A DNA stretch of 38,647 nt from Caldithrix sp. (GTDB taxonomy: Bacteria; KSB1; UBA2214; DYKH01): positions 1 to 38,647 of the forward strand of contig DYKH01000045.1 in the NCBI GenBank assembly GCA_020722685.1, in the 5' to 3' direction. Both the position numbers and the translations under genes were made by a program. A model generated the notes under the pieces. It was not told the origin of the DNA, ran no database searches, and saw only the letters and a program-made list of their open reading frames with translations. Below are positions 4,928-28,278 of this stretch, in pieces (within the stretch, counting starts at the first letter, position 1; each line of letters starts with the position of its first letter).

Positions 4928-5707
4928 TCAAAATGAAGCACGCAGAGAAAAATTCACCACGGGTTGTTCTGCGACGGCGCCGAACCGGATTCCCCAATCA
5001 ACAGAAGCTTGCTGCCTTCGATTGTACCGCGTCACCGTCCAGATCGCATCGATGGCGCTGACAACGTGGTTGGCCAGTACGGCACCAATGGCAAACAATG
5101 CGCGATTGTCGGCTTTGTCCGCTGAAATGCGTAATTGCTCGAATCTCGCTCGATTGGCGTCGCTGTCCCAATTCCAATAGTACGTTTCGACATCCGTGTA
5201 ATACTCGGGTAGGTTTCGCTGTCGCAGCTTGGCCGCGTTATAATCATAGATGCTCTGATAATTGCCCAGGTCGATAAAATAAGAATCGGATTTGCCGCGC
5301 AGTTCCACCCCCGCATGTGCCGCGGCGAAGGTCTCGTAATCCTGCTTCCGCCAATCACGGTAGGTGACAAAGCCGGCGTAACTCAACCACAAGCTCACCT
5401 CGGCGGCCATAAAGACCTGCGACTTGCTCTTGGAGCCGGCGTAGCGCTCTCCAAGTCCTGGCAATAAGAGCGACAGCAGGAACGCCTTCCCCTTGGATTT
5501 GCTCATGGACGCGCTCTCCTTCGTTTGCAGCAGATTCGCGGGAGCCAAGCCGCCGTTTTGTCCGACCTGATAAAAAGTGAGAATTTGGGGTGACCGCCAA
5601 GCGCCTGGTTGTAAGAAAAGCCGCTGTTGGATCGGCTCTTCTTCCCCAGCGAAGCTGGTGCCGGCCAAACTCAAGATGAAAAGAAAAGTCCTGTACCAGT
5701 AGCGCAT
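4928..5707 (-). CDS. DUF5683-type secreted/membrane protein, paralogue 2
   Basis: The 259-residue protein begins with a signal peptide (MRYWYRTFLFILSLAGTSFAG). A DUF5683-like core follows: a LLLPGLGERYAGS turn between hydrophobic stretches, a membrane-like helix, a Tyr/Asp-rich middle that probably faces the periplasm, and a C-terminal NHVVSAIDAIWTVTRYNRR block. The same two blocks occur in the upstream neighbour (LLPGAGQYYGGS and NHIVSSLDAAWTISRHNR), so the genes are tandem paralogues. I chose the ATG at 5707, five bases after the neighbour's stop, because it starts exactly at a good signal peptide. A TTG at 5719 would overlap the neighbour and has no ribosome site. The family is common in FCB genomes and its function is unknown. 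The position at the end of an outer-membrane gene block suggests an envelope role. Confidence 0.75.
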   Translation of the reverse strand: MRYWYRTFLFILSLAGTSFAGEEEPIQQRLFLQPGAWRSPQILTFYQVGQNGGLAPANLLQTKESASMSKSKGKAFLLSLLLPGLGERYAGSKSKSQVFMAAEVSLWLSYAGFVTYRDWRKQDYETFAAAHAGVELRGKSDSYFIDLGNYQSIYDYNAAKLRQRNLPEYYTDVETYYWNWDSDANRARFEQLRISADKADNRALFAIGAVLANHVVSAIDAIWTVTRYNRRQQASVDWGIRFGAVAEQPVVNFSLRASF

Positions 5708-5712
5708 GGGGC

Positions 5713-6522
5713 TTACCAATTTAGGCGAAGCGTCAGAGCGGTTGCCGGCTGCTGATTGAATTTCACCGGCTCGAATTGCAGGCTTGCCTGCGCCAATGAT
5801 CTGTTATGGCGAGAAATCGTCCAGGCAGCATCCAGAGAGCTGACGATGTGATTGAGCAAGACGATGGTAATTCCTGTGGTCGCTTTCTTGAACGCCCGGT
5901 TGCTGGCATCGCGTCGTCCTTCGTAGTAAAGCCGGCGCGCGGAACGCAACGATTTATCCCAACCGTCATCCAGCAAGCCAATCTCGGAATCATCCCAGCC
6001 GGAGTTGAACTGATCGTACTTGCCGATCATTTCATAGTACTGTTGATCTTTCTGCTCATGCAATCCGTGGCTAAAGTTTTCGTGCTCCCATTCCCGCAAA
6101 GCGGGCAAGTCGTTTCGGTCACGTCCTGAATGGTTGGCGATCCAATCCCAATAATCACTCTCAATCCAATGAGCGTCGGCGTAGTCCCGGAACTCGGCAT
6201 CGATGTCATTCCCTTCGGCGTTGTAGACCGCGTACATGGTCCAGCTCAGAGCTTCGACGGCGACAAATCCAACGGCCTTTAGCAGTGAACCGCCATAGTA
6301 CTGGCCGGCGCCCGGCAGCAGGGCCGATAGCAGCAGTCCAGTTTTAGGCGACTTCCACCCGTCCGGGTGCGAGACAGGAACGCCTATTTCTCCCACTTGA
6401 CCGGCGGCATAGGCGGAATTCACCGTTGCGGATTCAAGCATGAAAGCCTGCCAGTCCGTTGCGTTGGCTCCTGCTGCAGCGACGCTAAACCATAATGTCA
6501 GAAGAATAAAAGTGCGTCTCAC
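5713..6522 (-). CDS. DUF5683-type secreted/membrane protein, paralogue 1
   Basis: This 269-residue protein has a signal peptide (about residues 1-20) and the DUF5683-like pattern: SALLPGAGQYYGGSLLKAVG near residue 68, a hydrophobic helix, and an Asp/Trp/Tyr-rich middle with several YWDW/GWDD-type motifs. It ends with the helix NHIVSSLDAAWTISRHNR and a C-terminal strand. The start is GTG at 6520-6522, supported by AAGGAG eight bases upstream. Its stop lies five bases before the start of the paralogue at 5707, so the two are clearly co-transcribed. The tail LTLRLNW, like the paralogue's FSLRASF, ends in an aromatic residue. That could mean a terminal beta-strand, but this is speculative. Function unknown. 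Confidence 0.77.
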   Translation of the reverse strand: MRRTFILLTLWFSVAAAGANATDWQAFMLESATVNSAYAAGQVGEIGVPVSHPDGWKSPKTGLLLSALLPGAGQYYGGSLLKAVGFVAVEALSWTMYAVYNAEGNDIDAEFRDYADAHWIESDYWDWIANHSGRDRNDLPALREWEHENFSHGLHEQKDQQYYEMIGKYDQFNSGWDDSEIGLLDDGWDKSLRSARRLYYEGRRDASNRAFKKATTGITIVLLNHIVSSLDAAWTISRHNRSLAQASLQFEPVKFNQQPATALTLRLNW

Positions 6523-6826: not shown

Positions 6827-9800
6827 TTATTCCAAAAAGTCGAACAGCACACTCACATAGTATCGCCACTCTTTGCCGTAGGTCACCTGCTCGCTGACGA
6901 TTTTGTCCAAGCCATAAGCGGCGCTGACGGAAATGGCTGTCGGAAATCCGTAAAAAGAAAAGGCGGAAAAGCGCAAATCGACGCCGGCGTCCTTCTTGAA
7001 ATCGGCGAGCCGGACTCGGTCCCCGTCAAAGGCGTTGCCATAGTCGAAAAAACCAGCCAGATACAGCTTGTCCGATGTCACGTTGAACAGCCGGTGCTGC
7101 CAATAGCTGAATAGTGGAAAGCGGTAGGTGAAACGACCCAAAAGCAGCTTGCGCCCGCCGATACTGTAGAACGGATAGCCGCGCAAGCCCGGCAGACCGC
7201 CGGCAAAAAAGTTGAAAAAGCTGTCTATGGGCCGGTCGACCCAGCCGCCGCGGATTTGGACGTTGACAGCATGCTTGTGCAGCCAGGGCAGCAGGCAATA
7301 CTCTCGCCAATTCAACTCCAGGCGATTATAGTTATAATCGGTGTACACCTCCTGCGGGGTGCCATAGTCATTGTCGGTGGAAAAATCTTTGAAAAACTTG
7401 TTGTACTCGCGGGTGTACTTGATCTCGATTCTTCGCCCGGCGGATGGATTGATGTCGGAATCGATTCTCGGCACGAGCTGATCGATGCTCCAGGTCAAGG
7501 CAAAATGGTTGCCGATAAAATAAGTATTGAGCGGCGAAGTAAACTGGAGGTTGCGAAAGAAAAAATCTTTGATTTTGCTGGTGTATCGACTGTGGACGTA
7601 GGCCCCGCGAATCACACTGGCGTCGTTGAGACGATAATATGCGCCTACGTCGGCCTCTAAGATGTTGAAACCGATGTCAAGCTTCACCCGGCTATTTGGA
7701 TCGTCTTCCCTGACCTCGATGTCCCGCTCGATGTTACGGGTGAAACCGTACAGCTCGAGGAAGAGCGTAGGCGCCAATCGCCGGTATTCAAAAATGGCAA
7801 AGGCGTCCAGGTCTTTGCGCGCGTTCAAGGCCGCTCCACCCAAAACCGAATAGCGATCTAGAATGTCGCTGGCATAAAAATAGGTGCCAAGCTTGACTCG
7901 ATTGGAATCGAGCATGACGCGCGGCAAGAATGAGACCTGCCCATAGGTCATGTTGTAAGGCTGGGTGGAAAGATCGGGAAGCTGGGTATCGTCGAATTCG
8001 CGGACAGATCGCGGAATCGCATCCGCGTCTTCCCGGCCATTGCCCCATAATCCCAGCGGTCCGCCATCGGCGACCGTGAGATACTCGCTCTTCGGCTGCT
8101 CGATTTCTTGCGGCGCTTCCATCAGCGCAATCTTGTAGCCGTCGTATTGAAAATTCGAAAAAGCCAGTTTTCCCTCACGGGAAAGGGACGGCATAAACGC
8201 CCCGCCGATGACGTTGGTCCACTGCTGCAATTGGGACCCGTCGGTATCGACGCTGTAGATGTTAAAGATTCCCGTCTTGTCCCAAGAAAAGTAGACGTGC
8301 TGGCCGTCGCCGCTAAAAACCGGATCGCGGGCATCGCCTTCGCCGGTAACAAGGTCGCGCACGCTGGCGGTCGAGAGTTCCATCAGCTTCAAATCGCGAC
8401 CGTGATTGCGGGCTTGGGAATAAACGATGTATTTGTCATCCGGCGACCAGCGCGGGGAGAACACCGCTTCGCCATTGGCAAAATGAGTCAGCTCGCGTAT
8501 CCTTTTGCCGGTGCGGTCGAGAAGCAACAAATTGTCGGTGCCGTCCTTCTGAACCGCGCAAACGATTTGTTGGCCGTCCGCCGACCAGTCGGCATCCAAA
8601 ACCCGGAGGCCTTTTGTTAGCCGCGATTCTTTTTTCTTTTTCAAGTCATAGAGCCACAAATCGCTATAGTGCGATCCATGCTTGTCCCGCTCGTGCCGGG
8701 CGTACAAAAGCTTTTGTCCGTCGGCTGACCAGGAAATGGCGCTGTTCACCCCGGCCTTTACCAGCTTGCTCCTACCGGTCGAAGTATCAAAAATGAACAA
8801 GCTCGTTCGCGTCAAATAATCGGATGATTTTCCGCCGCAAAAAGCAATGAGCTTACCGTCCGGCGACCAAGCCGGAAAGATATTGCCGATTCCCTCTTTG
8901 GTCAGCAGGACGCCTTCACTTCGCGTCTTTTCAATTTCCGCCAAACGAAGACGATAGTATTTTTCCAAATCCGTGCGCCAACGATCATACAACTCATCGG
9001 CAGGCAGGCCGGTCACTTTTTTCAAAGCACCGCCAACGGTGAACCGCAGGGGACTGGACATCGAATCGGATAACTTTCGCACCGCATCAGCGCCCCAATT
9101 CTTGGTCAGGTAGCGAACGAAAGCATAACCGGCGTTATACGTCCGCTCATTGCCCAGACTGTTCTTGCCGAAAACGCCCATCTCGTCAAAAGAGTGCAGC
9201 TTGCCGGCGAGCACGGCGGTGCGGATCAGCATGTCGCGGTGGCTGTCCCACATATCGTAATCCAAACCCGGAGCCTGATACTGCGCCATCCCTTCCGCCA
9301 GCCACATGGGCATGACGGTCATGGCGATGGGATAAGATGCAAGCACGTTGGGGTAACCGTACAATACATCCGGGCGCTTCTCACTCTCGTAACCGATCAT
9401 CTGCAAATAAAGAGCCGGCACGCGTCGTGTAATCTTACGCGCAGCGCCCAGACTGACCATGTGAGTAAACTCGTGGGTTACCACATTGCGGAGCCAATTG
9501 TGCGTGCCGCGCAAAATGAAGGTCATCTGCGGCGCCCAAATCTCCACTTTGTTATCATAATAAAAGGCCGCACCATTCGAGTTGTCATCGTGGTCTTTGA
9601 CGATAAAGTGAACGATTCCGTCCGGCTTCCAGTCATACAGCGAGGTCACCGGCTGGTAGATTTCCTCCGCTATTTTGGCTACTACCCGAGCCGACCGCTC
9701 GGCACCATCGTGGTAGTGGATTTCGAAATGTTCGGTTTTGAGGGTGTACCAATCCAGCTCCGGGTGGTTGTCCTCGCGGCTTTGGGCAAAGATTGCATTG

Positions 9801-9853
9801 GAGCAGCCAAAGCCCATAAGAAAAAGTATTATTCGTTTCGTCAAGACACTCAT
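6827..9853 (-). CDS. Outer-membrane fusion: HExxH peptidase, TolB-like propeller, Omp85-like barrel
   Basis: The 1008-residue protein joins three modules. A signal peptide (about 1-23) precedes a gluzincin-type (peptidase MA-like) domain with HEFTH at 127-131 and the likely third zinc ligand E187 in WLAEG. Residues about 318-580 carry WD40-like PD40 repeats as in TolB, with recurring WSPDG, WSADG and FSGDG turns. Residues about 640-1008 look like an Omp85/BamA-type beta barrel, including GLPGLRGYPF at 886-895 and a FFDYGNAF strand. The natural reading is an outer-membrane protein with a periplasmic peptidase and propeller. The ATG at 9853 is chosen because the signal peptide starts there. An in-frame extension to 9961 would run into the upstream gene. 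It follows the pseudo-M6 gene by 10 bp. Its substrate and whether it assembles or secretes anything are unknown. Confidence 0.85.
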   Translation of the reverse strand: MSVLTKRIILFLMGFGCSNAIFAQSREDNHPELDWYTLKTEHFEIHYHDGAERSARVVAKIAEEIYQPVTSLYDWKPDGIVHFIVKDHDDNSNGAAFYYDNKVEIWAPQMTFILRGTHNWLRNVVTHEFTHMVSLGAARKITRRVPALYLQMIGYESEKRPDVLYGYPNVLASYPIAMTVMPMWLAEGMAQYQAPGLDYDMWDSHRDMLIRTAVLAGKLHSFDEMGVFGKNSLGNERTYNAGYAFVRYLTKNWGADAVRKLSDSMSSPLRFTVGGALKKVTGLPADELYDRWRTDLEKYYRLRLAEIEKTRSEGVLLTKEGIGNIFPAWSPDGKLIAFCGGKSSDYLTRTSLFIFDTSTGRSKLVKAGVNSAISWSADGQKLLYARHERDKHGSHYSDLWLYDLKKKKESRLTKGLRVLDADWSADGQQIVCAVQKDGTDNLLLLDRTGKRIRELTHFANGEAVFSPRWSPDDKYIVYSQARNHGRDLKLMELSTASVRDLVTGEGDARDPVFSGDGQHVYFSWDKTGIFNIYSVDTDGSQLQQWTNVIGGAFMPSLSREGKLAFSNFQYDGYKIALMEAPQEIEQPKSEYLTVADGGPLGLWGNGREDADAIPRSVREFDDTQLPDLSTQPYNMTYGQVSFLPRVMLDSNRVKLGTYFYASDILDRYSVLGGAALNARKDLDAFAIFEYRRLAPTLFLELYGFTRNIERDIEVREDDPNSRVKLDIGFNILEADVGAYYRLNDASVIRGAYVHSRYTSKIKDFFFRNLQFTSPLNTYFIGNHFALTWSIDQLVPRIDSDINPSAGRRIEIKYTREYNKFFKDFSTDNDYGTPQEVYTDYNYNRLELNWREYCLLPWLHKHAVNVQIRGGWVDRPIDSFFNFFAGGLPGLRGYPFYSIGGRKLLLGRFTYRFPLFSYWQHRLFNVTSDKLYLAGFFDYGNAFDGDRVRLADFKKDAGVDLRFSAFSFYGFPTAISVSAAYGLDKIVSEQVTYGKEWRYYVSVLFDFLE

Positions 9854-9863
9854 GGATGCTTGT

Positions 9864-12800
9864 CTATTTAACCACTGCAATTTTGATAAATTCGATGCTG
9901 CTGTCGCCGCCGCTAACAGCCTCCACTCGGGCAAGGTACACTCCGCTTTCGATACGCGCAACGTTCCAAACCACTTCGTGGTCGCCTACCGACACCTCCG
10001 GACTTGGCAATTCTTCGACAAAATCTCCGGCCAGATCATAAAGGCGAATGGACACCTTGCTGGCCGGCTTGCTCAGGGTATAGCGGATATTGGTGCGATC
10101 AGCCTCCGTCGGATTGGGATAGCAAAAGACCTTTTTGCTCGGCATGAGGGTGGCTTGACTGACCGTGCTGGTATTGTTCTGGGGAAAAGAAAAGTCATGG
10201 CGCTCATTACCCCCAAATTGCGGCCATTGGATGCCTTCCCGCGAGATCAACAGGGCAAGATTCCAGGCGTAGAGGTAACCGTCCGTTGAAATGACAGCCA
10301 GCTCCAGGTCGGCATCTTGATTAAAGTCCGCCAAGACGGGCGTCGCCACAATGGCGTTCCCTGTGGTGAGTGGAAAGCCATCCACCAGCTTGGCGCTGCC
10401 GCCGGCAAAGGCGTGCAGCATCCCATCGACATCTGCCATTAATCCAATAGATTCCGTCGCAGTTTTGATCCACAGTGGTGAGGGTATTTCGCTTGTATTC
10501 AGGCTATGGGATGAGCGAATAGCGATGGGAAAATTAAGGCTGGAAGCTCCGCTCGTCTCAAATGCGAAGAATTGACTTCCATTGGAAAAGAGGATTTCCG
10601 GCAAACCATCTTCATCCACGTCGCCAAGGCTGGGAGCGCTAATGGGACCCAAACTGGGATTTTGCTGATGCCGGCTCAGCAAAGTGCCATCGGCAGCGAA
10701 CAGAGCAATATCGCCTCTATCCGACACGACGGCGATTTCTACTGCTGCGTTGCCATCAAAATCAGCTACCACCGGCTGGTATGATTTCGCATCGCTGACG
10801 AATTGCACCTGCCAGAGTTTTTCGCCCGCAGAGTTCAAGGCGAAAATGTCGCCGTTTGAGGTCACGGCGACGAGCTCGCCGCTGCTTGTTCCCATTGAGG
10901 CCAATCCGGTTATCGCTTCCGCTGCCAAGTTTTGCCGCCCGATCAATTGCAGGGCATCATCCCGGTAAGAAAGCAGATAAACGGTTCCCGTTCCGCTGCC
11001 GACGATGATTGCAGCAACGGAGTTGCCGCCGTCTTGACCCATCAACATCGGGCCTGCTGTCGGAAATTCGGAAATAGAATAGGAGCCGAGGACATCTGCC
11101 CTTCCGTCACCATCGGCATCTTTTAGGGACAATAGGCTGAGAACGCCCGAGCGCTCCACTACCACGACTTCCGGAACGCGATCATTGTCGAAATCTGCCA
11201 TGGCCGGCGACAGAAAAACCGAGTCGCCGGTTTGTGCCACCAGTGGCAAATCGTCATCGTTGGGGATCAGCTTTGCACCGGTTCCACTACAACCGAGAAT
11301 CGCCCCACCTTGCGCAACCGCAATCAAGCCGATCCCTTGGCCGGTTTCCATGGGAAAAGTAACCAGCGACCCGGCACCAAAACCGGAGCCAACGAACTGC
11401 GGAAATCCCGGCACGGCCAAATCCGAGCTGACGGAAAACGTCATCACCGTATCGCGCTCACTGAAATTGGCAAAACGGATGTGCGTCACAGCACGATTGT
11501 TAGCATTGCTGTTGGGAATACTCTGCGGCGATAGCTCGACCACGTCCGATTTGTTCACAATCTTGTGTGACTCGTTGCTGGCCCAGTAGGGATCAAAATA
11601 ATCGCCCGACTCGGTGCCGTAGGCGGGATCGAAAAGACTGTAATAGAAGCCGATGTCCTGTGCGCCGTCGCATTCGACCAAATCGACGCCGCGATGCTCA
11701 CGATCGTCATTGATGGTGTTGGTCGCCAAATTCGCCTCGATGACGCGCTCGTCAATATGCCAAACAAGGATGCCCGAACCCGGCAGGCCAAAGTCGTACT
11801 CATCGATGCGAGTGACCACACCCATACCGGACTGGGCGACGATTTTGCCGGTCGAGTCGAATTCCACTCGCTTGTTCTGTTCATCTCGACCGACAGCGAT
11901 CTTGTCGCCGTTTCGATCCTGTTTTCGATTCTCCATGAGAAAGTATTCTTTGGAATCAATCGGAACCTTTACGATATGCGGAGCGGACGTTGTATTGGAT
12001 GCGCCGACTCGCAAGCCTTCGGCGTTTGTGACGACCACTGGCTCTTCCCATCCCATAAATATTTTCTCCCAGGCGGATGGCTCAGCCGGGATCAAACCCT
12101 GGAAATTGTAGGAACCCTGATCCATGAGTCCCCAGCGGCCGATGCCCGGGCGTCCGGATTGAGTATCGAACAAACTGGGCATACCCAACTGGCTACCCAT
12201 CAGCAGGGTCATGGTGCCCAACAGCGCCAAGTTTTGCTCTTCCTGATTCTGCGTTTCCGGCAATATAATGCCTTCGCGGACAAACACGCCGTCGCCCACG
12301 TCAATGCCTTGATAACCGGCATCATTGGCACCGATTGTCTCTTTGAGAGTGGTAAAATCTATAAAAGCAGATTGGATATCGTAAGGAGTGGGATCGAAAT
12401 CAAAGGCAAAATCGCTGCCCACACCGGCATGAAAGATCATGAAGCAGTCATACTTGCCAAAGTCGGGCTTGGGGTCCGTGTTCGCGACCGTCAACACGTC
12501 CCGCAGCAGCTCGGCCCAACGCTGCTTTTTCAGCTCTTCGTTTTCCTGACCGCTGTAATAAACCATGTTCTGGGACAATTGGTAAGCGTTGGTTTTGCCT
12601 TTGGGGAACACATCACCTTCGATGATCACCTTGCCGTTGGAAACCCGGCGGAAATAATTCGCCAAGGCGAGCAACTGATGCTGGAAATAGGTGCTATCGT
12701 GAGGAGGCCGATCAAAGACGTAACCACTGCTGGTGGACAGATCGAATCTACCGTTGCCGTTGGTAGTGGCAAGGTCATCCACGATAAACTCGGCTCGCAA

Positions 12801-12998
12801 AGCGAGAATTTTGATCGTATCCGCCCTGGCCATCCTGGCCGTGGAATAGCGAAAATCAAGGCGATTCACCGCGGAGGACGAGGGATTTGAAGACAGCCTG
12901 AGTTTGAGAGGCGGACTGGCGAAAGAAGGCCGGCCCACCAAAATGAGGATTTGAAATAGAGAGAGAGCAAAAACGAGCAGCTTTTCTTGCGTTCGCAT
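9864..12998 (-). CDS. M6-family metalloprotease-like secreted protein with lost zinc motif and type IX-like sorting domain
   Basis: The 1044-residue product has a signal peptide (about 1-27) and an M6 (immune inhibitor A-like) peptidase framework. Diagnostic stretches are GRWGLMDQGSYNFQG at 287-301, PSAWEKIFMGW at 307-317 and a GILVWHIDERVIEANL segment near 409-424. Where active M6 enzymes have HExGHxLGLPDLYD, this protein reads LLMGSQLGMPSLFD at 265-278: both histidines and the glutamate are replaced (L265, L266, S269). The peptidase is therefore probably inactive. Residues about 525-930 resemble FG-GAP/VCBS-type propeller repeats with many DxDxDG calcium-like loops (ADFDNDRVPE, DVDEDGLPE). 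The last 88 residues (957-1044), starting VFCYPNP, form a FlgD-like/type IX sorting domain. The neighbouring PorV-like gene supplies a plausible shuttle. A bidirectional terminator lies just upstream (13059-13103). Confidence 0.87.
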   Translation of the reverse strand: MRTQEKLLVFALSLFQILILVGRPSFASPPLKLRLSSNPSSSAVNRLDFRYSTARMARADTIKILALRAEFIVDDLATTNGNGRFDLSTSSGYVFDRPPHDSTYFQHQLLALANYFRRVSNGKVIIEGDVFPKGKTNAYQLSQNMVYYSGQENEELKKQRWAELLRDVLTVANTDPKPDFGKYDCFMIFHAGVGSDFAFDFDPTPYDIQSAFIDFTTLKETIGANDAGYQGIDVGDGVFVREGIILPETQNQEEQNLALLGTMTLLMGSQLGMPSLFDTQSGRPGIGRWGLMDQGSYNFQGLIPAEPSAWEKIFMGWEEPVVVTNAEGLRVGASNTTSAPHIVKVPIDSKEYFLMENRKQDRNGDKIAVGRDEQNKRVEFDSTGKIVAQSGMGVVTRIDEYDFGLPGSGILVWHIDERVIEANLATNTINDDREHRGVDLVECDGAQDIGFYYSLFDPAYGTESGDYFDPYWASNESHKIVNKSDVVELSPQSIPNSNANNRAVTHIRFANFSERDTVMTFSVSSDLAVPGFPQFVGSGFGAGSLVTFPMETGQGIGLIAVAQGGAILGCSGTGAKLIPNDDDLPLVAQTGDSVFLSPAMADFDNDRVPEVVVVERSGVLSLLSLKDADGDGRADVLGSYSISEFPTAGPMLMGQDGGNSVAAIIVGSGTGTVYLLSYRDDALQLIGRQNLAAEAITGLASMGTSSGELVAVTSNGDIFALNSAGEKLWQVQFVSDAKSYQPVVADFDGNAAVEIAVVSDRGDIALFAADGTLLSRHQQNPSLGPISAPSLGDVDEDGLPEILFSNGSQFFAFETSGASSLNFPIAIRSSHSLNTSEIPSPLWIKTATESIGLMADVDGMLHAFAGGSAKLVDGFPLTTGNAIVATPVLADFNQDADLELAVISTDGYLYAWNLALLISREGIQWPQFGGNERHDFSFPQNNTSTVSQATLMPSKKVFCYPNPTEADRTNIRYTLSKPASKVSIRLYDLAGDFVEELPSPEVSVGDHEVVWNVARIESGVYLARVEAVSGGDSSIEFIKIAVVK

Positions 12999-13132: not shown

Positions 13133-14233
13133 TTAGAAGCCGATGGTTAAAGAGAAGCGCATGGTATTGGCCAATGGATGCCCTTCGGCAGCGGAGATGT
13201 AGCCAAAATCAAAACGATAGAGGCTGTATTGAATGCCGGCGCCAAACGACCAAAAATCGACCTTGCCGGGCTTGTCCCAGTATTTGCCGGCGCGCAAGGC
13301 AATCAGATCGCTGTACCAATACTCCACGCCGCCGCTAAGAATGCCGTTGAAAATTTTCTTCTCGCCGATAACTTCCTCGTCCCCCTTGCTGCCAATATTC
13401 TTCTTTTCCTTTTCCACTATCGTCCAGGGAGAAGTGAAAAGTGCCTTGTAAAACGGATCGGAGGTGCCGTCGGCATTGCGGGTGACCATGAGCTTGTTCA
13501 TGTCGCCAACAAAGGTCAGTTTGTTGAACTTGTTGTTCACCAATCGATAGGCAAAGCCAACCTTGAGATTGGTCGGCAATGGATCGGCCTGCGCTGCGTC
13601 GATATAAGTGATCTTCGGTCCCATGTTGGAGAGGTTAAGTCCCAAGCTCAACTTGGGGGCAAAGGGGACTCGGTACAGAGTGGCGACATCGAAAGAGAAA
13701 GCGCTGGCCCGGCCATCGCCCTTTTCCGCGCCGGCGCCGACGCTGGACAGATTGGAACGGATGAAGCGCAGGCCAAGGCCGACTGCCCAATTTTCGCTGA
13801 GCGCTGTTCCAAACGTACCAGAAATAGCAAATTCGTTGCTGTTGAAGGTGCCCAACGGCTCGGGGCCGCCCTCTCCGGTAATGGTTTGTTCGCCCAAATT
13901 CAAGTAAGTCACATTTAGGCCTACTGTTCCAATTCCTTCGAAGGATTGCCGATAGGCGCCAAAATCGTAGAAAAGGTCGGAGCCGAATTGAGGCAGCCAA
14001 TTGGCGTGCATGAGAGTGAGTTCTCGGCCTTTTTGCCAGGCTAAGCCGGCGGGATTCCAGTACACGGCCGTTGCATCATCGGCCAAGCCGACAAAGGCTT
14101 CGCCCATAGCCGCAGCCCGCGCGCCCGGCGATATGAGCAGAAATAGCACAGCGGATTCGCTGACTGCATAGGATTGGGAGAATCCAAGCAGAAGCATTGA
14201 CACGGCAATCAAGGTGAGAAATAAGTGCTTCAT
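13133..14233 (-). CDS. PorV/PorQ-family outer-membrane protein
   Basis: The 366-residue protein has a signal peptide (about 1-23) followed by the hallmark N-terminal block of PorV/PorQ (UPF0164-like) barrels: SPGARAAAMGEAFVGLADDA at 35-54 and then YWNPAGLAW. The remainder alternates strands and turns as expected for a FadL-like barrel, ending in MRFSLTIGF with a terminal Phe. In type IX secretion, PorV binds the C-terminal sorting domain of cargo at the outer membrane. Related proteins occur widely in FCB phyla, including some without a full type IX system. The ATG at 14233 has AGGAGA seven bases upstream. The next gene encodes a protein with such a sorting domain, which supports a cargo-shuttle relation. 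A long structured leader and promoter candidate lie upstream (14313-14568). Confidence 0.87.
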   Translation of the reverse strand: MKHLFLTLIAVSMLLLGFSQSYAVSESAVLFLLISPGARAAAMGEAFVGLADDATAVYWNPAGLAWQKGRELTLMHANWLPQFGSDLFYDFGAYRQSFEGIGTVGLNVTYLNLGEQTITGEGGPEPLGTFNSNEFAISGTFGTALSENWAVGLGLRFIRSNLSSVGAGAEKGDGRASAFSFDVATLYRVPFAPKLSLGLNLSNMGPKITYIDAAQADPLPTNLKVGFAYRLVNNKFNKLTFVGDMNKLMVTRNADGTSDPFYKALFTSPWTIVEKEKKNIGSKGDEEVIGEKKIFNGILSGGVEYWYSDLIALRAGKYWDKPGKVDFWSFGAGIQYSLYRFDFGYISAAEGHPLANTMRFSLTIGF

Positions 14234-14312
14234 AGTCTGTCTCCTGTCAGTTACGGAACTATTGTTGTTACCATGCTTTCATTTGCTTTCTTAAATTAGC
14301 TCCGTAGGACAT

Positions 14313-14375
14313 AAACAAAAAGCCGAATGCCCGGAGCCACTCCACTTGCAAAGAGTCTCACCTCACGACATTCGG
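14313..14375 (-). terminator. Terminator-like hairpin in the porV leader (attenuator candidate)
   Basis: On the minus strand, CCGAATGTC (14367-14375) pairs with GGCATTCGG (14323-14331), nine pairs including one G-U, followed by CTTTTTGTTT. The 35-nt loop contains a second possible hairpin, GGAGTGGCTCC. It lies between the promoter candidate at 14540-14568 and the PorV start, so it could either end the preceding gcv transcript or attenuate porV. It matches no riboswitch class I could recall. Confidence 0.5.
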
Positions 14376-14383
14376 TCACTATT

Positions 14384-14398
14384 ATCGGCAAGCCCGAT
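14384..14398. repeat. Small hairpin in the porV leader
   Basis: ATCGG and CCGAT pair around a CAAGC loop, just upstream (on the minus strand) of the terminator-like hairpin. A further GCTTGC/GCAAGC hairpin with a 3-nt loop lies at 14464-14478. Together they give the roughly 300-nt leader three stem-loops. Confidence 0.4.
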
Positions 14399-14539
14399 TA
14401 CAAGTTCGGTTAAAGGCAGCAACATATTTTGTAATTTGAAAACACTTTCTATTGGATGTTGATGCTTGCATCGCAAGCAAATTCCTTTAACGAACTTTTA
14501 TGGGCTCACTCCTCTTATGGATACTATTGATTACGCGCG

Positions 14540-14568
14540 AAATTACTAATTAATAAAAAAACAGTCAA
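14540..14568 (-). promoter_or_regulatory. Promoter candidate for porV
   Basis: On the minus strand TTGACT (14563-14568) and TAATTT (14540-14545) are separated by 17 bases, close to the sigma-70 consensus, inside an AT-rich stretch. Transcription would start near 14533 and give a leader of about 300 nt before the PorV start. The surrounding AAAAAAC/GTTTTTT arms could also form a weak terminator for the gcv genes. Confidence 0.55.
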
Positions 14569-14768
14569 GCGTTTTTTCAAGAGATTTGACGGCGGCAAAG
14601 TTGACACTCGCCGCTCTGTTTGTAGTTTGCTCAATTGGCAGGCAAATCTTTGCCAGATTCCACACCATAACCCCGGCCAGCAATTTTCTCTGCTCGCCGG
14701 CAAACATCCTCTCGACCAACAATTTTGCAAATGGTAGAAAACGATCGAAAATTTACACCCCTATAACA

Positions 14769-16118
14769 TTAGCCTTGAGAAAAAAGTTCCCGCAGTCTGT
14801 CAACAAAAATGTCCATTTCCTTCTTGGTACGTTTCTCCGTCACTGCACAGGAAAAGGAATGGCCCAGTTCCGGATAATCGGGCTTGAGCTCAACGCCGGC
14901 AAAAATCTTTGCCTCGAGCATTTTGCCTATTACATCTTTTGCCGGCTTTTCCGCCTGAATAACGAATTCCTTAAAAAAGGGTCGGCCAAATTGCACCTTA
15001 AAACCGGTCAATCCGTTGATTTGGTTGGCAAGATAATGACTCTTTTGCAAACAAAGCTCAGCGACCTTTTTCAGGCCGGTCTTGCCGAGCAATGAAAGAT
15101 AAACCGTAGCCGCCAACGTCATCAGCCCTTGATTGGTGCAGATATTGGAGGTCGCTTTTTCCCGGCGGATGTGCTGCTCGCGCGTTTGCAGCGTCAGCAC
15201 AAAGCCCCGCCTTCCCTGCAAATCCACCGTCTGGCCCACCAGACGACCGGGCATCTTGCGCATCAATTCCTTCGTAGTAGCGAAAATCCCCAAATAAGGA
15301 CCGCCGAAATTGAGCTGATTGCCAAGACTTTGTCCCTCGCCCGTGGCGATGTCTGCGCCATAGGAACCTGGTGGCTGTAACAAGGCCAGGGAAATGGGGT
15401 CATTGGAGGTGATGAACAGCGCGCCCTGGCGATGGGCGATTTGAGACATTTCCTCCATTTCCTCCAAATGACCAAAATAATTGGGATGCTGAATGACGAC
15501 TGCCGCCGTCTTTTCGCTGATTGAGGAAGCCAAGGCCTCCTGGTCAGTGGCGCCGTCTTTCCAGCCGACTTGCTTAACGAGGATCTGCTGGCCGGCGCAA
15601 TAGGTACGGATAATTTTTCGATAATTGGGGTTGATTGTGGCAGAGACCACCACTTCCGCTCGCCGGGTGTGGCCGCAAGCCAACAACACCGCTTCCGCCA
15701 GCGCCGAGCCGCCGTCATACATGGATGCGTTCGCAACATCCATGCCGGTTAGCTCGCAGATCATGGTCTGGTATTCATAGATGGCTTGCAGCGTCCCTTG
15801 GCTCACTTCCGGCTGATAGGGGGTGTACGCGGTATAGAATTCCGACCGGGAAAGAATGTGCTTGACGGCTGCCGGAACAAAATGATCGTAAGCGCCACCG
15901 CCGAGAAAGCAGAGGTTGTTCTCACAATTCTGGTTTTCAAGGGCCAGCTCCCGGAGGTGCCGCATCACTTCCATCTCCGACATGGCCGGCGGCAGATCTA
16001 GATCACCCCTGAACAGCAGTTGCGGTGGGATCTCCTGCAAAAGATCGTCAAAGCTCTCAACTCCGATCGCTTTTAACATCTCTTGCTGGTCGTCTTTTGT
16101 ATTGGGAATGTAGCTCAT
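14769..16118 (-). CDS. gcvPA: Glycine dehydrogenase (decarboxylating) subunit 1
   Basis: This is the N-terminal half of the split P-protein of the glycine cleavage system. The whole P-protein decarboxylates glycine and passes the aminomethyl group to the lipoyl arm of GcvH. The 449-residue length is normal for GcvPA. Characteristic stretches are FLGGGAYDHFVPAAV near residue 72, AYTPYQPEVSQGTLQAIYEY near 97, and YDGGSALAEA near 135. The pyridoxal-phosphate lysine lies in the GcvPB half, which is not encoded here. The ATG at 16118 is preferred to the TTG one codon upstream because GGAG lies seven bases before it. The gene follows gcvH by 141 bp, with an inverted repeat in the gap. gcvT and gcvPB are not in the window and must be elsewhere if the pathway works. 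Confidence 0.95.
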   Translation of the reverse strand: MSYIPNTKDDQQEMLKAIGVESFDDLLQEIPPQLLFRGDLDLPPAMSEMEVMRHLRELALENQNCENNLCFLGGGAYDHFVPAAVKHILSRSEFYTAYTPYQPEVSQGTLQAIYEYQTMICELTGMDVANASMYDGGSALAEAVLLACGHTRRAEVVVSATINPNYRKIIRTYCAGQQILVKQVGWKDGATDQEALASSISEKTAAVVIQHPNYFGHLEEMEEMSQIAHRQGALFITSNDPISLALLQPPGSYGADIATGEGQSLGNQLNFGGPYLGIFATTKELMRKMPGRLVGQTVDLQGRRGFVLTLQTREQHIRREKATSNICTNQGLMTLAATVYLSLLGKTGLKKVAELCLQKSHYLANQINGLTGFKVQFGRPFFKEFVIQAEKPAKDVIGKMLEAKIFAGVELKPDYPELGHSFSCAVTEKRTKKEMDIFVDRLRELFSQG

Positions 16119-16147
16119 CAAAAATCTCCGCGGGACATCATCGGCGA

Positions 16148-16213
16148 ATGCTCGGCCTACCAGCTGTCGCTCGGTAATAGGACGCAGAAAACCTATTCAG
16201 TCCTTCCGAGCAT
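16148..16213. repeat. Inverted repeat between gcvH and gcvPA
   Basis: ATGCTCGG (16148-16155) and CCGAGCAT (16206-16213) are perfect 8-base complements separated by 50 bases. A further CTCGG lies inside. It could form a structured RNA between gcvH and gcvPA. It has no U-tract and none of the conserved elements of the glycine riboswitch. Confidence 0.35.
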
Positions 16214-16259
16214 AGCCGCTCTAGTTCTTCACTACCTGCTCTGAGAGAACGGTTGTGAA

Positions 16260-16637
16260 TCAGCTAATCTTGTCTTTGTAGTCGTCTGGACTGAGCAGAC
16301 TGTCCAATTCACTGGGGTCGCTCATTTTAATCCTAATCATCCAGCCCGTTCCATAAGGATCCTTGTTGACAGTATCCGGTGCGTCAGCCAAAACAAGATT
16401 GGTTTCCACAACTTCTCCGGAAACGGGGGCGAATAGATCCGAGACTGCCTTGACCGCTTCAATCGTGCCAAACGATTCCATTTGCTTAACCGTTGCACCG
16501 ACCTCCGGCAGTTCGACGAAAACAACGTCACCCAACTCACCCTGCGCATAGTCCGTCACCCCAACGGTGGCGATACCCTGATCCACCGACACCCACTCAT
16601 GCTCTGCCGTATATTTCAAATCTTTTGGAATTCGCAT
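16260..16637 (-). CDS. gcvH: Glycine cleavage system H protein
   Basis: GcvH is the small lipoyl carrier that shuttles the aminomethyl group between the P- and T-proteins and accepts electrons from dihydrolipoamide dehydrogenase. The 125-residue product has the usual length and order: YTAEHEWVSV at 9-18, GVTDYAQGELGDVVFVELP at 26-44, and the lipoylation site ESFGTIEAVKAVSDLFAP with Lys63. PVSGEVVETN follows. The ATG has a strong GAGGAGG ribosome site seven bases upstream. It starts only 12 bp after accC and precedes gcvPA, so acc and gcv genes are probably co-transcribed. No lipoate ligase or synthase gene is visible here. Confidence 0.97.
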   Translation of the reverse strand: MRIPKDLKYTAEHEWVSVDQGIATVGVTDYAQGELGDVVFVELPEVGATVKQMESFGTIEAVKAVSDLFAPVSGEVVETNLVLADAPDTVNKDPYGTGWMIRIKMSDPSELDSLLSPDDYKDKIS

Positions 16638-16649
16638 TCTTGGCCTCCT

Positions 16650-17996
16650 CTAATTCTTGAAATCAAAGCTCTCTAAAAAGTTAGTATTGAAATTGCCTTC
16701 ACGAAACTGTGCACTCTTTATTATTTTTTGCTGCAAAGGAATGGTGGTCGCGATTCCTTCGATAATGAACTCTTCCAACGCCCGCTCCATGCGATCGAGA
16801 GCTTCATCGCGATTCCTGCCATGGGTGATGATTTTGGCAATCAATGAATCGTAGTAGGGCGGGATCACGTACTGAGCGTATGCATGGGTGTCGACCCGCA
16901 CGCCCAGACCACCAGGGATGTGAAAGCTGGTGATTTTACCCGGCGAGGGGCGAAAATCCAGCATGGGATCCTCTGCGTTGATTCTACACTCAATGGCATG
17001 GCCGCGCAGACTGAAACCGGCCAATTTCTCCGGCAGCTTGCCGCCCGCAGCGATCAAAATCTGCTCCTTGATGAGGTCGATTCCCAAAACAGCCTCGGTC
17101 ACCGGATGCTCCACCTGAATTCGTGTGTTCATTTCCATAAAATAAAAGTTCCCTTGCTCATCCAGCAGAAACTCGATGGTGCCGGCACTGTTGTACCCGA
17201 CCTGCTTAGCCCCCTTCATGGCTGCGATATTCATAGCCCTGCGCAGCTCCTCGGTGACCGCCGGAGAGGGTGATTCTTCAATCAGCTTCTGATGTTTACG
17301 CTGAATGGAGCATTCTCGTTCCCCGAGTGCTACGACATTTCCGTAATTATCTCCCAGCACCTGAATTTCGATGTGGCGGGGATTTTCAAAATATTTCTCA
17401 ATGTAAAGGGATGGGTTATTGAAAGCGTTTTGCGCCTCGGCCTGAGCAGTGTTGAAAGCATTGCCGAGCTCTTCTTGGTTGCGCACCACGCGCATGCCTC
17501 TGCCGCCGCCGCCGGCAACCGCTTTGAGAATAATCGGTAGACCAATGTCCTCCGCGATTTTGGCAGCTTCCTCGACGCTGGAAACGATTCCGTCGGATCC
17601 CGGGATGGTGGGCACGCCCGCCTTTTTCATGGTGTCTTTGGCAAAGACTTTATCACCCATTTGAGTGATTACTTCGGGAGTTGGACCAATAAATTGGATG
17701 TCGCAAGACTGGCAAATTTCGGCAAAGTGCGCGTTTTCGGCCAAAAAACCATAGCCGGGATGGATGGCATCGGCATTGGTGACTTCGGCGGCGCTGATCA
17801 ATTGCGGAATATTGAGGTAGCTCTTGTTGCTCGGTCCCGGACCGATGCACACCACCTCATCTGCGAACCGAACGTGCAAGCTATCCGCGTCGGCCTCGCT
17901 GTAGACAGCCACCGTGGGAACACCAATCTCCTTGCACGCCCGAATGATTCTCAGGGCGATCTCCCCTCTATTGGCTATCAATATCTTTTTGAACAA
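16650..17996 (-). CDS. accC: Acetyl-CoA carboxylase, biotin carboxylase subunit
   Basis: AccC uses ATP and bicarbonate to carboxylate the biotin on AccB, the first step toward malonyl-CoA for fatty-acid synthesis. The 448-residue length is standard. Visible motifs are the N-terminal [29 protein letters not shown] at 79-89, the glycine-rich ATP-grasp loop AGGGGRGM at 161-168, and the catalytic segment [12 protein letters not shown] with E288 and R292 at the same numbers as in the E. coli enzyme. The start is TTG at 17994-17996, preceded by AAGGA at suitable spacing. A non-AUG start with full N-terminal homology beginning at residue 2 makes this choice firm. It follows accB by 160 bp, a gap with no visible gene. 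The carboxyltransferase subunits (accA, accD) are not in the window. Confidence 0.97.
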
Positions 17997-25690: not shown

Positions 25691-26986
25691 TCACGAAATG
25701 CCCACCCGGGCGTAGATGTAATCGATGTGCCTCAGAGCAATGCCTTCGTCAAAACAAGCGTCGATTTCCTGGCGTGTCAGTAGCTCCGTGATGCGTTGAT
25801 CGGCAAGGATGGCCGTTTTCAAGTTGGATCGCTCCTGCCAACAGGTCATCGCGTGGGTTTGCACGATTTGATAAGCGTCCTCACGACTCATACCCGCCTG
25901 CGTCAAGGCTAAGAGAATTGGCTGAGAAAAAATCAATCCTTTGGTCAATCGCAAATTGGCCAGCATATTCTCCGGGTATATAACCAAATTCGCCAAGATG
26001 TTGGTCATTCGCGCCATGATGAAATCAGCGATGATACAACTGTCCGGCAGGGCAACGCGCTCAACCGAAGAGTGGCTAATATCTCTTTCGTGCCAAAGGG
26101 CAACGTTTTCCATGGCGGCCAAAGCGTTGGTCCTGAGCAATCTGGCAAGGCCGGAAACGTTCTCGCTACCGATGGGATTGCGCTTATGCGGCATGGCCGA
26201 AGATCCCTTTTGCCCTTCGCTGAACGGCTCCTCGGCCTCCAAAACTTCGGTCCGCTGCAAATGGCGAATTTCAACGGCGATCTTTTCCAAGCTGCATCCT
26301 ATCAAAGCAAGGGCGGTCATGAATTCGGCATGCACGTCTCGCTGAACGATTTGCGTGGATATGCGTGCCGGCTTTAGCCCCAGCTTGTCGCAAACCTTCT
26401 CTTCGACTTTGGGGTCGACAAAGGCGTAGGTGCCGACTGCACCGGAGATTTTGCCTACCGACACGGCTTCGACGGCCCGCTGCAATCGTACCAAATTGCG
26501 ACCCATCTCATCGTACCACAAGGCAAATTTGAGACCGAAGCAAGTCGGCTCCGCGTGAACACCGTGGCTGCGCCCAATGCAGAGAGTGGTTTTGTGCGCC
26601 AGCGCTTGTGCTCGCAAGACCTCGCGCATTTTGCCAATACCGTCCAGCAAAAGCCGGCCGGCGGCTTGCATTTGCAGAGCCAGTGCGGTGTCCAACAAGT
26701 CGGAGGACGTCATGCCGAGATGGATGTACCGAGAGGCCGGGCCAACGTGCTCTGCTACGTTGGTCAAAAAGGCAATCACGTCGTGTTTGACTTCCTTCTC
26801 GATTTCCGCGATCCGTACTGGATTGAATTGGGCTTTCGCCTTGATTTCCGCCAAAGCTTCCTCTGGTAAGCGACCCAACTCGGCCTGGGCTTCGCAGGCC
26901 GCTAATTCCACCTGCAGCCAGGTGCGATACTTGTGCTCCTCACTCCAGATCTCCCCCATTTGTTGGCGTGTGTATCTGGGAATCAT
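25691..26986 (-). CDS. purB: Adenylosuccinate lyase
   Basis: PurB removes fumarate from SAICAR and from adenylosuccinate, serving two steps of purine synthesis. The 431-residue length is standard. Signature residues are visible: H68 in KHDVIAF, HLGMTSSDLLDT at 89-100, H141 in GRSHGVHAEPT (general acid), and the flexible loop GSSAMPHKRNPIGSENV with S262/S263. The ATG at 26986 overlaps the degP stop (ATGA, 4 nt) and has no ribosome site of its own, so its translation probably depends on the upstream protease gene. purC follows after 59 bp. Confidence 0.98.
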   Translation of the reverse strand: MIPRYTRQQMGEIWSEEHKYRTWLQVELAACEAQAELGRLPEEALAEIKAKAQFNPVRIAEIEKEVKHDVIAFLTNVAEHVGPASRYIHLGMTSSDLLDTALALQMQAAGRLLLDGIGKMREVLRAQALAHKTTLCIGRSHGVHAEPTCFGLKFALWYDEMGRNLVRLQRAVEAVSVGKISGAVGTYAFVDPKVEEKVCDKLGLKPARISTQIVQRDVHAEFMTALALIGCSLEKIAVEIRHLQRTEVLEAEEPFSEGQKGSSAMPHKRNPIGSENVSGLARLLRTNALAAMENVALWHERDISHSSVERVALPDSCIIADFIMARMTNILANLVIYPENMLANLRLTKGLIFSQPILLALTQAGMSREDAYQIVQTHAMTCWQERSNLKTAILADQRITELLTRQEIDACFDEGIALRHIDYIYARVGIS

Positions 26987-28269
26987 TTGTTGTTCGGTCT
27001 TGTGTTCGGATGTGCCGCTAATTTGACATTAATGTTCAGGAAGCTTCTGCTCCTATAGACGCGGAAAGCCAGCGAATCGCCCTGTCGCAGGTCAAGGTCA
27101 TCGATGATCTTTTTAACGTCATCGAATTGATTAACCTCCTTGCCGTTGATGGCCACGATCACGTCACCGATCTCGATGCCCGCTTTAGCGGCCGGGCTAT
27201 GCGGGTCCACCTCGGATACAATGACGCCTCGGCTCGTCCTCAGGCCGAGATAGCGTGCAATCTCGGGCGTTACAATGTCATAGTGAATACCGGTCCAGAA
27301 GCTGCGGTCCACTCGCCCGTAATTCATGAGATCGTTGAGAACGCGTTTGACGCGATTGATGGGAATGGCGAATCCAATCCCAATGTTGGCGGACATCGTT
27401 TCGCTGCCGGAGATGATCCAGGTATTGATGCCGATGACCTCGCCGTTACAGTTGACCAGCGGCCCGCCGCTGTTGCCGCCGTTGATCGCCGCGTCGGTTT
27501 GCAGCATGTCTTCCAAAATTCGCTCGTTTTGCTGTCGCCCAAAATCCTGATCTTTGGCGCTGATGACCCCTACCGTCACCGTCGGCTTGGATGAGATGTC
27601 AAAGAGGCCAAAAGGATTGCCGAGCGCGATGGCCCATTCGCCGATGATGACATCATCGGAATCGCCAAAACGCACATAGGGAAAGTCATTGCCCTCTATC
27701 CTCAATACGGCGAGATCAGTGGCATAGTCCTCACCTACCTCCTCCGCCACGTATTGTTTGCCTCCCTGTCGGGTCACAATGATCTCCGCAGCGTCCTCAA
27801 CCACGTGCTGATTGGTCAGCACATAACCATCATTGGAAATGATAAATCCGGAGCCCAAGCTTTTCACTCGCTTTTCAAAGGGAACATCCGGGAAAAATTG
27901 TCGGAAAAACGGGTCATCGGCAAAAGGGCTGCGGCGAATGTATCGCTGCACCTGCGTGACGTTGATGCCCACCACCGCCGGACTGACCTCCTCCACCGCG
28001 CGGGTGATGGCGTTTCTGCGCGAATTGGTCACCTCTTCCTGAACATTACCAGCTTGTGAGATGGCCGTTCCGGATCTTGCAGCAAAGTCGGTAGTAGCAT
28101 TCGCCTGCGGCATATTCATTCGAGCATTGGCCTTGTCGGACGAATTTCCTTCCGAACAGACGACAAAAAAAGCGGCGGCAGTGCAAAAACCCAAGACGAA
28201 AAGATAAACTGTTTTGAATAAGCGATTCAAGTTACTCATTTTTGATTTGATCAAGTTTAAAAGGGCCAT
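26983..28269 (-). CDS. DegP/HtrA-family periplasmic serine protease
   Basis: This 428-residue protein is a trypsin-like HtrA protease with one C-terminal PDZ domain, as in DegS-like enzymes, and acts in envelope protein quality control. An N-terminal hydrophobic segment (about 20-38) anchors or exports it. The catalytic triad is H155 in TNQHVV, D185 in ATDLAVLRI and S267 in GGNSGGPL. GNPFGL precedes the active serine as usual. The PDZ domain (about 320-415) contains GVIVSEVDPHSPAAKAGIEI. The ATG at 28269 is nine bases after the preceding stop. A TTG one codon upstream and an ATG eleven codons later are also possible, and none has a clear ribosome site. The stop overlaps purB. Confidence 0.93.
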   Translation of the reverse strand: MALLNLIKSKMSNLNRLFKTVYLFVLGFCTAAAFFVVCSEGNSSDKANARMNMPQANATTDFAARSGTAISQAGNVQEEVTNSRRNAITRAVEEVSPAVVGINVTQVQRYIRRSPFADDPFFRQFFPDVPFEKRVKSLGSGFIISNDGYVLTNQHVVEDAAEIIVTRQGGKQYVAEEVGEDYATDLAVLRIEGNDFPYVRFGDSDDVIIGEWAIALGNPFGLFDISSKPTVTVGVISAKDQDFGRQQNERILEDMLQTDAAINGGNSGGPLVNCNGEVIGINTWIISGSETMSANIGIGFAIPINRVKRVLNDLMNYGRVDRSFWTGIHYDIVTPEIARYLGLRTSRGVIVSEVDPHSPAAKAGIEIGDVIVAINGKEVNQFDDVKKIIDDLDLRQGDSLAFRVYRSRSFLNINVKLAAHPNTRPNNK

Positions 28270-28278
28270 CAAGCGTTG

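Follow-up and report, generated by a model that had tools for sequence, protein, structure and literature searches.

A peptidase-propeller-Omp85 protein encoded together with a pseudo-M6 protein in type IX secretion loci

We describe a 1008-residue protein, hereafter PTB, in which a gluzincin-type peptidase domain, a TolB-type propeller and an Omp85-type barrel are joined. It is encoded in a type IX secretion system (T9SS) locus and is found almost only together with a pseudo-M6 protein, an association that is well supported, and we consider it a candidate for an unrecognised T9SS part. Coordinates refer to the window, that is, the whole stretch of 38,647 nt analysed (contig DYKH01000045.1).

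The PTB gene occupies 6827..9853 of the minus strand (1008 aa plus stop; ATG at 9853, stop at 6829-6827). The original prediction had placed one protein in this stretch without naming a strand; the minus strand does hold a single open reading frame (ORF), and the plus strand is broken by stops. The ATG lies 10 nt past the stop of the pseudo-M6 gene, and an alternative TTG start upstream, at 9961, would run into that gene. Residues 1-24 (9782..9853, minus) were judged by eye to form a signal peptide, with a hydrophobic start ending in AQ and at the same place in the family consensus. They are followed by the peptidase domain (residues 26-305; 8939..9778), the beta-propeller (residues 311-580; 8114..8923) and the 16-stranded barrel (residues 633-1008; 6830..7957), all on the minus strand. 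The structure model (pLDDT 90.6, pTM 0.89) displays each of them, and with the fold matches it bears out the predicted combination of an HExxH peptidase, a TolB-like propeller and an Omp85-like barrel in one chain. Mean pairwise identity is highest in the peptidase (0.59), followed by the barrel (0.45) and the propeller (0.44).

HEFTH (residues 127-131; 9461..9475, minus) is the predicted zinc-binding and catalytic motif and E187 of WLAEG (residues 184-188; 9290..9304, minus) the presumed third zinc ligand. Residues H127, E128, H131 and E187 are unchanged in 154 of 154 aligned relatives, from which six fragmentary or broken locus ORFs had been excluded beforehand; the site is therefore not a chance motif. 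In the model HEFTH lies on helix 120-138 and E187 on helix 183-192, both in the N-terminal domain, which aligns end to end with gluzincins upon fold comparison. The gluzincin-like site that had been read from the two motifs was thus recovered, as was their expected proximity, the latter as seen at the level of helices and domain rather than of atom distances. Pfam family Peptidase_MA_2 scored below its cut-off of 32.4 bits on the full chain (E 2.6e-7, 31.1 bits) and above it on the isolated domain (35.8 bits), and PF13485 matched 34 of 34 isolated peptidase domains at E<=0.1. A sequence profile of the domain gave no relevant match among solved structures (a single match, E 1.2). Motif and modelled fold support a gluzincin, and we regard the domain as a putative enzyme.

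The PD40 repeats (Pfam, E 3.8e-22) do correspond to a propeller, at residues 311-580 of the model, and the barrel predicted for residues 640-1008 is present, with 16 strands between residues 641 and 1003; the Pfam Omp85 match itself (E 1.7e-4, 21.7 bits) falls below the cut-off of 24. An RGF/RGY-type motif in loop L6 is a mark of the Omp85/TpsB superfamily, and PTB displays the 16-stranded C-terminal barrel as well as an RGY-type motif, GLRGY (residues 889-893), in the loop between strands 11 and 12 (residues 873-901; 7151..7237, minus). Mean pairwise identity in L6 (residues 872-902) is 0.72 versus 0.45 for the whole barrel, and the presumed outer-side loops apart from L6 are 3-15 residues long. 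Pfam gave no POTRA match on PTB at E<=0.1; residues 26-580 are taken up by peptidase and propeller in the model. Given the even number of strands and the L6 motif, both ends, and hence peptidase and propeller, are probably periplasmic. The earlier description as a periplasmic peptidase tethered to an outer-membrane barrel consequently stands as to the joining of peptidase and Omp85-type barrel, its periplasmic side being likely from strand number and L6. PTB as T9SS cargo was rejected, as a C-terminal sorting tail was not found (no Por_Secre_tail match).

A total of 2040 proteins match PTB at E<=1e-3, and the 120 matches listed span 96-100% of the query. Since Pfam accessions PF26549 and PF26550 are assigned to the homologues listed, some of the family may have been noticed by a curator before; no NCBIfam model scores PTB above its own cut-off. 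Partial matches were found in 27 plasmid records, none spanning 80%. More remote proteins sharing this domain make-up were collected as 12 loci (L089-L100) from seven genomes (G001, G002, G004, G007, G009, G014 and G015). All 12 ORFs, of approximately 970-1085 residues, hold HExxH (HELTH, HELVH, HEYRH, HEFQH and other types); of the eight scanned with Pfam, Omp85 was found in five, Peptidase_MA_2 in six, and both cut-offs were passed in four. Several of these peptidase-propeller proteins can occur within one genome, and the genomes are the same as those that carry PTB; the architecture by itself is therefore not necessarily specific to the T9SS. That the triple fusion is a rare one-off was rejected, given the many full-length relatives and these more distant proteins.

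Upstream of PTB lies the pseudo-M6 gene (9864..12998, minus), the product of which has an FG-GAP region and a type IX sorting tail. It matches NF052323, the model for T9SS-dependent inactive M6 proteins, with 574.5 bits (E 4.5e-172; curated cut-off 600) and contains no HExxH. The M6 site is without HExxH in 35 of 36 aligned M6 proteins, the Latescibacterota copy keeping HEFGH; that copy (L170:4877-7798) is located in a PorU-PorV locus with a DUF5683 gene directly after it, PTB being elsewhere in the genome. Since the M6 protein ends in a sorting domain, pseudo-M6 should be exported by the T9SS. A PorV family outer-membrane protein is encoded at 13133..14233 (minus; PF19572 1.1e-30; NF033709 288.7 bits, above cut-off 90), its score with the PorV equivalog model being 217.5 bits, below the cut-off of 250. 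Downstream of PTB follow two DUF5683-like genes in tandem, at 5713..6522 (minus; 22.3 bits, below cut-off 26.7), a conserved neighbour, and at 4928..5719 (minus; 17.8 bits, below cut-off), a neighbour in many loci; the pair (4928-6522, minus) stays beside PTB in most loci. The gene for a glycine cleavage P-protein subunit (GcvPA; 14769-16121, minus) lies upstream of PorV, as it does in 5 of 25 related loci, and that low number led us to reject the idea that this metabolic gene belongs to the module in general. The window also holds a gene for a DegP/HtrA-type serine protease (26983-28272, minus; 351.7 bits, below the model cut-off of 416.2).

Genome contigs yielded 72 loci. Neighbour counts use L001-L039, each only where the contig reaches far enough; L040 onward were left out, all of them matching by the propeller only save L055 (42 residues at the edge of a contig) and L058 (a weak match, 8-587). 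Phylum names are those in the deposited titles of the centre loci, some of which seem misassigned (L001 Actinomycetota, L022 Puniceispirillum). The informative loci have pseudo-M6 directly upstream of PTB in 31 of 33 cases, PorV before pseudo-M6 in 27 of 27 and a DUF5683 gene downstream of PTB in 33 of 36; exceptions are L023 (Latescibacterota), L036 (Myxococcota) and, on the downstream side only, L017. The order PorV, pseudo-M6, PTB, DUF5683 spans KSB1/Calditrichota, Neomarinimicrobiota and Ignavibacteriales and persists at 32-34% PTB identity, by which chance neighbourhood is rejected and conservation of these three neighbours, which the original prediction had named for checking, is supported. 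By strong matches PorU precedes PorV in 5 of 25 loci, and by a looser rule in six. Two further genomes (L163, L164) have PorU, PorV, pseudo-M6, PTB and DUF5683 followed by SprA, starting 4-5 kb after PTB, with PorU (918.3, cut-off 420) and PorV (261.7, cut-off 250) of L163 both above NCBI curated cut-offs; the gene for PTB sits in a T9SS locus. In L163 two minus-strand permease-like ORFs (14117-16665), LptF/LptG-like by eye, separate the DUF5683 gene from SprA.

Sixteen genomes were reached through the loci: one long PTB match was found in 15 (the G013 copy divergent), SprA in 15, PorU above cut-off in 14 and the N-terminal half of M6 likewise in 14, including Latescibacterota genome G010, whose M6 keeps the intact motif. 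Chlorobiota contig genome G016 has SprA and PorU and lacks PTB and M6; Myxococcota genome G013 has its divergent PTB relative, with no SprA match and no M6. In the KSB1/Calditrichota-type phylum PTB was found in 56 of 59 genomes (E<=1e-100), SprA in 53 of 55, with two PTB-positive genomes (G045, G068) showing no SprA match, and M6 in 52 of 55, three of these (G030, G055, G059) by its C-terminal part alone, directly next to PTB. For the Neomarinimicrobiota-type phylum the counts are 57 of 61 for PTB (E<=1e-60), the four negatives being of about 1 Mb each, and 55 of 58 for M6. PTB is split in two pieces in a few genomes, and none has two full copies at the thresholds used. Among 14 control genomes neither SprA nor NF052323 was detected, and PorU matched in two, never above cut-off.

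In the third phylum, that of an Ignavibacteriales genome, PTB was found in 42 of 99 genomes, negatives being defined at E<=1e-100, a threshold that a very divergent copy could escape. In the first 80 of these, SprA occurs in 62 and M6 in 34, which are exactly the 34 with PTB and are all SprA-positive. The remaining 28 of the 62 SprA-positive genomes have neither PTB nor M6, hence the T9SS core does not need PTB. The pairing persists where the genes are apart: in G076 a single contig holds both, about 860 kb apart; G150 and G084 have them on different contigs, non-adjacent in the stretches fetched. Five apparent mismatches in the other two phyla (G036, G042, G049, G068, G171) count neither for nor against the pairing, since the one gene detected in each of them is at the end of its contig. 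Fisher tests of PTB against M6, which ignore kinship, gave p 2e-23 in the third phylum, 1e-4 in the Neomarinimicrobiota type and 0.15 in the KSB1 type, the last because nearly all its genomes carry both genes. A SprA tree of the 62 genomes, made by fast alignment and quick search, contains a very long branch (G101) and a gappy row (G150); on it PTB and M6 are gained or lost jointly at least four times; as the two labels are identical, the tree counts joint changes only. An independent-pair (sign) test gave 4 of 4 (p 0.125); with so few events significance is out of reach, and the joint changes are therefore no more than suggestive. The PTB-negative clade with high SprA scores probably represents Bacteroidia.

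Part of this architecture is known. A propeller with an Omp85 barrel constitutes the published WD40-Omp85 subfamily of the Omp85/TpsB superfamily, which has been likened to a fusion of BamA with BamB (Heinz and Lithgow 2014, PMC4104836). PTB fits its description in having a TolB-like propeller N-terminal to an Omp85 barrel and no POTRA, a domain usual in the superfamily and lacking in some other described subfamilies as well (PMC4104836). It differs by its added peptidase: the main text of that paper has no word beginning with 'peptidase', its sections 10 and 13 do not mention the T9SS, and its 'Metallo' subfamily is defined by PF00149, unlike the HExxH peptidase of PTB. PlpD, a patatin-Omp85 protein, likewise has an enzyme domain, periplasmic in its case, N-terminal to the barrel, but that domain is patatin-like, the protein is a homodimer and the abstract names no propeller (PMC11116518). 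Among gluzincins (M30 lugdulysin, M1 aminopeptidases, M9 collagenases), the solved relatives listed show 7-16% sequence identity and are not described as propeller-barrel fusions. PorU and PorV share the locus with PTB in a number of genomes, yet the matches of PTB mark it as neither sortase nor PorV-family barrel, and it has no sorting tail. BepA (M48) of E. coli acts with BAM and LptD in outer-membrane barrel assembly; like PTB it is an HExxH peptidase, and its place of work is the one proposed for PTB, but it is a separate, unfused protein. Among the papers listed in searches of the open-licence literature, none described the three-domain fusion or a connection of it to the T9SS. Within that scope the earlier statement that such a fusion has no described function still holds for all three domains together, propeller plus Omp85 being a subfamily already published in PMC4104836; neither the extra peptidase nor the tie to type IX secretion turned up in those searches.

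We tentatively favour, at somewhat less than an even chance, that PTB is an outer-membrane protein with a periplasmic peptidase that serves as T9SS assembly or quality-control factor. The Omp85 barrel would anchor PTB with both ends in the periplasm, the propeller could be a docking platform replacing POTRA domains, and the putative zinc peptidase, as motif and modelled fold suggest, would act beside it. PTB would so help and police how T9SS outer-membrane parts, PorV and pseudo-M6 first, are inserted or matured, somewhat in the manner of the separate protease BepA at BAM. A T9SS-dedicated factor with its own protease is favoured by our data and also by the periplasmic enzyme of PlpD (PMC11116518) and by T9SS genes at the bamA locus, for which a BAM-T9SS link is suspected (PMC12611786). 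Against a T9SS role count the M6 of G010, which keeps its active-site motif in a PorU-PorV locus with PTB elsewhere, the PTB relative of Myxococcota G013 without SprA match, and the purified F. johnsoniae BAM complex, which in the account given in PMC12611786 contains no T9SS components.

That PTB is instead a processing peptidase, trimming pseudo-M6, PorV or cargo in the periplasm with the barrel as anchor only, is unlikely. It would agree with the peptidase being the best-conserved domain, its active-site residues kept in all 154 relatives, but L6 is conserved beyond what a mere anchor seems to require, and PorU, a known sorting protease, is already above cut-off in 14 of 16 genomes searched. 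That PTB is nearly universal in two of the sampled phyla, that the genomes encode further proteins of like architecture at other places and that metabolic GcvPA is a neighbour in 5 of 25 loci would suit a general factor for outer-membrane homeostasis (lipid, peptidoglycan or lipoprotein) that came into the T9SS locus through shared regulation or history; we consider this distinctly unlikely, as PTB and pseudo-M6 co-occur even when non-adjacent and are jointly absent from SprA-positive genomes. Export of PTB's own peptidase through the barrel to the cell surface, as formerly proposed for PlpD, and action there with a PorV-held pseudo-M6 appears still less likely: the sorting tail should place pseudo-M6 on the surface, where its co-occurring partner might be sought, but the enzyme domain of PlpD stays periplasmic (PMC11116518) and the presumed outer loops besides L6 have only 3-15 residues.

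A wider form of the favoured assembly or quality-control role, which we judge rather unlikely, is that PTB and pseudo-M6 form an obligate, unrecognised T9SS module in several phyla of the Fibrobacterota-Chlorobiota-Bacteroidota superphylum outside classical Bacteroidia, in which a secreted dead protease is paired with a self-contained BAM/TAM-like barrel that has its protease built in and is dedicated to the outer-membrane parts of the T9SS. The co-occurrence of PTB with pseudo-M6 and with the wider type IX locus (PorU, SprA) goes beyond the original prediction. The T9SS is known mainly from cultured Bacteroidia, and a second form of the system would exist if PTB and pseudo-M6 turn out to belong to it in other bacteria. 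PTB would then be a dedicated candidate for building the T9SS barrels PorV and SprA, the latter 36-stranded (PMC12611786), an Omp85 protein that fuses docking platform, protease and barrel, and would tie an active-looking peptidase to a dead one across phyla.
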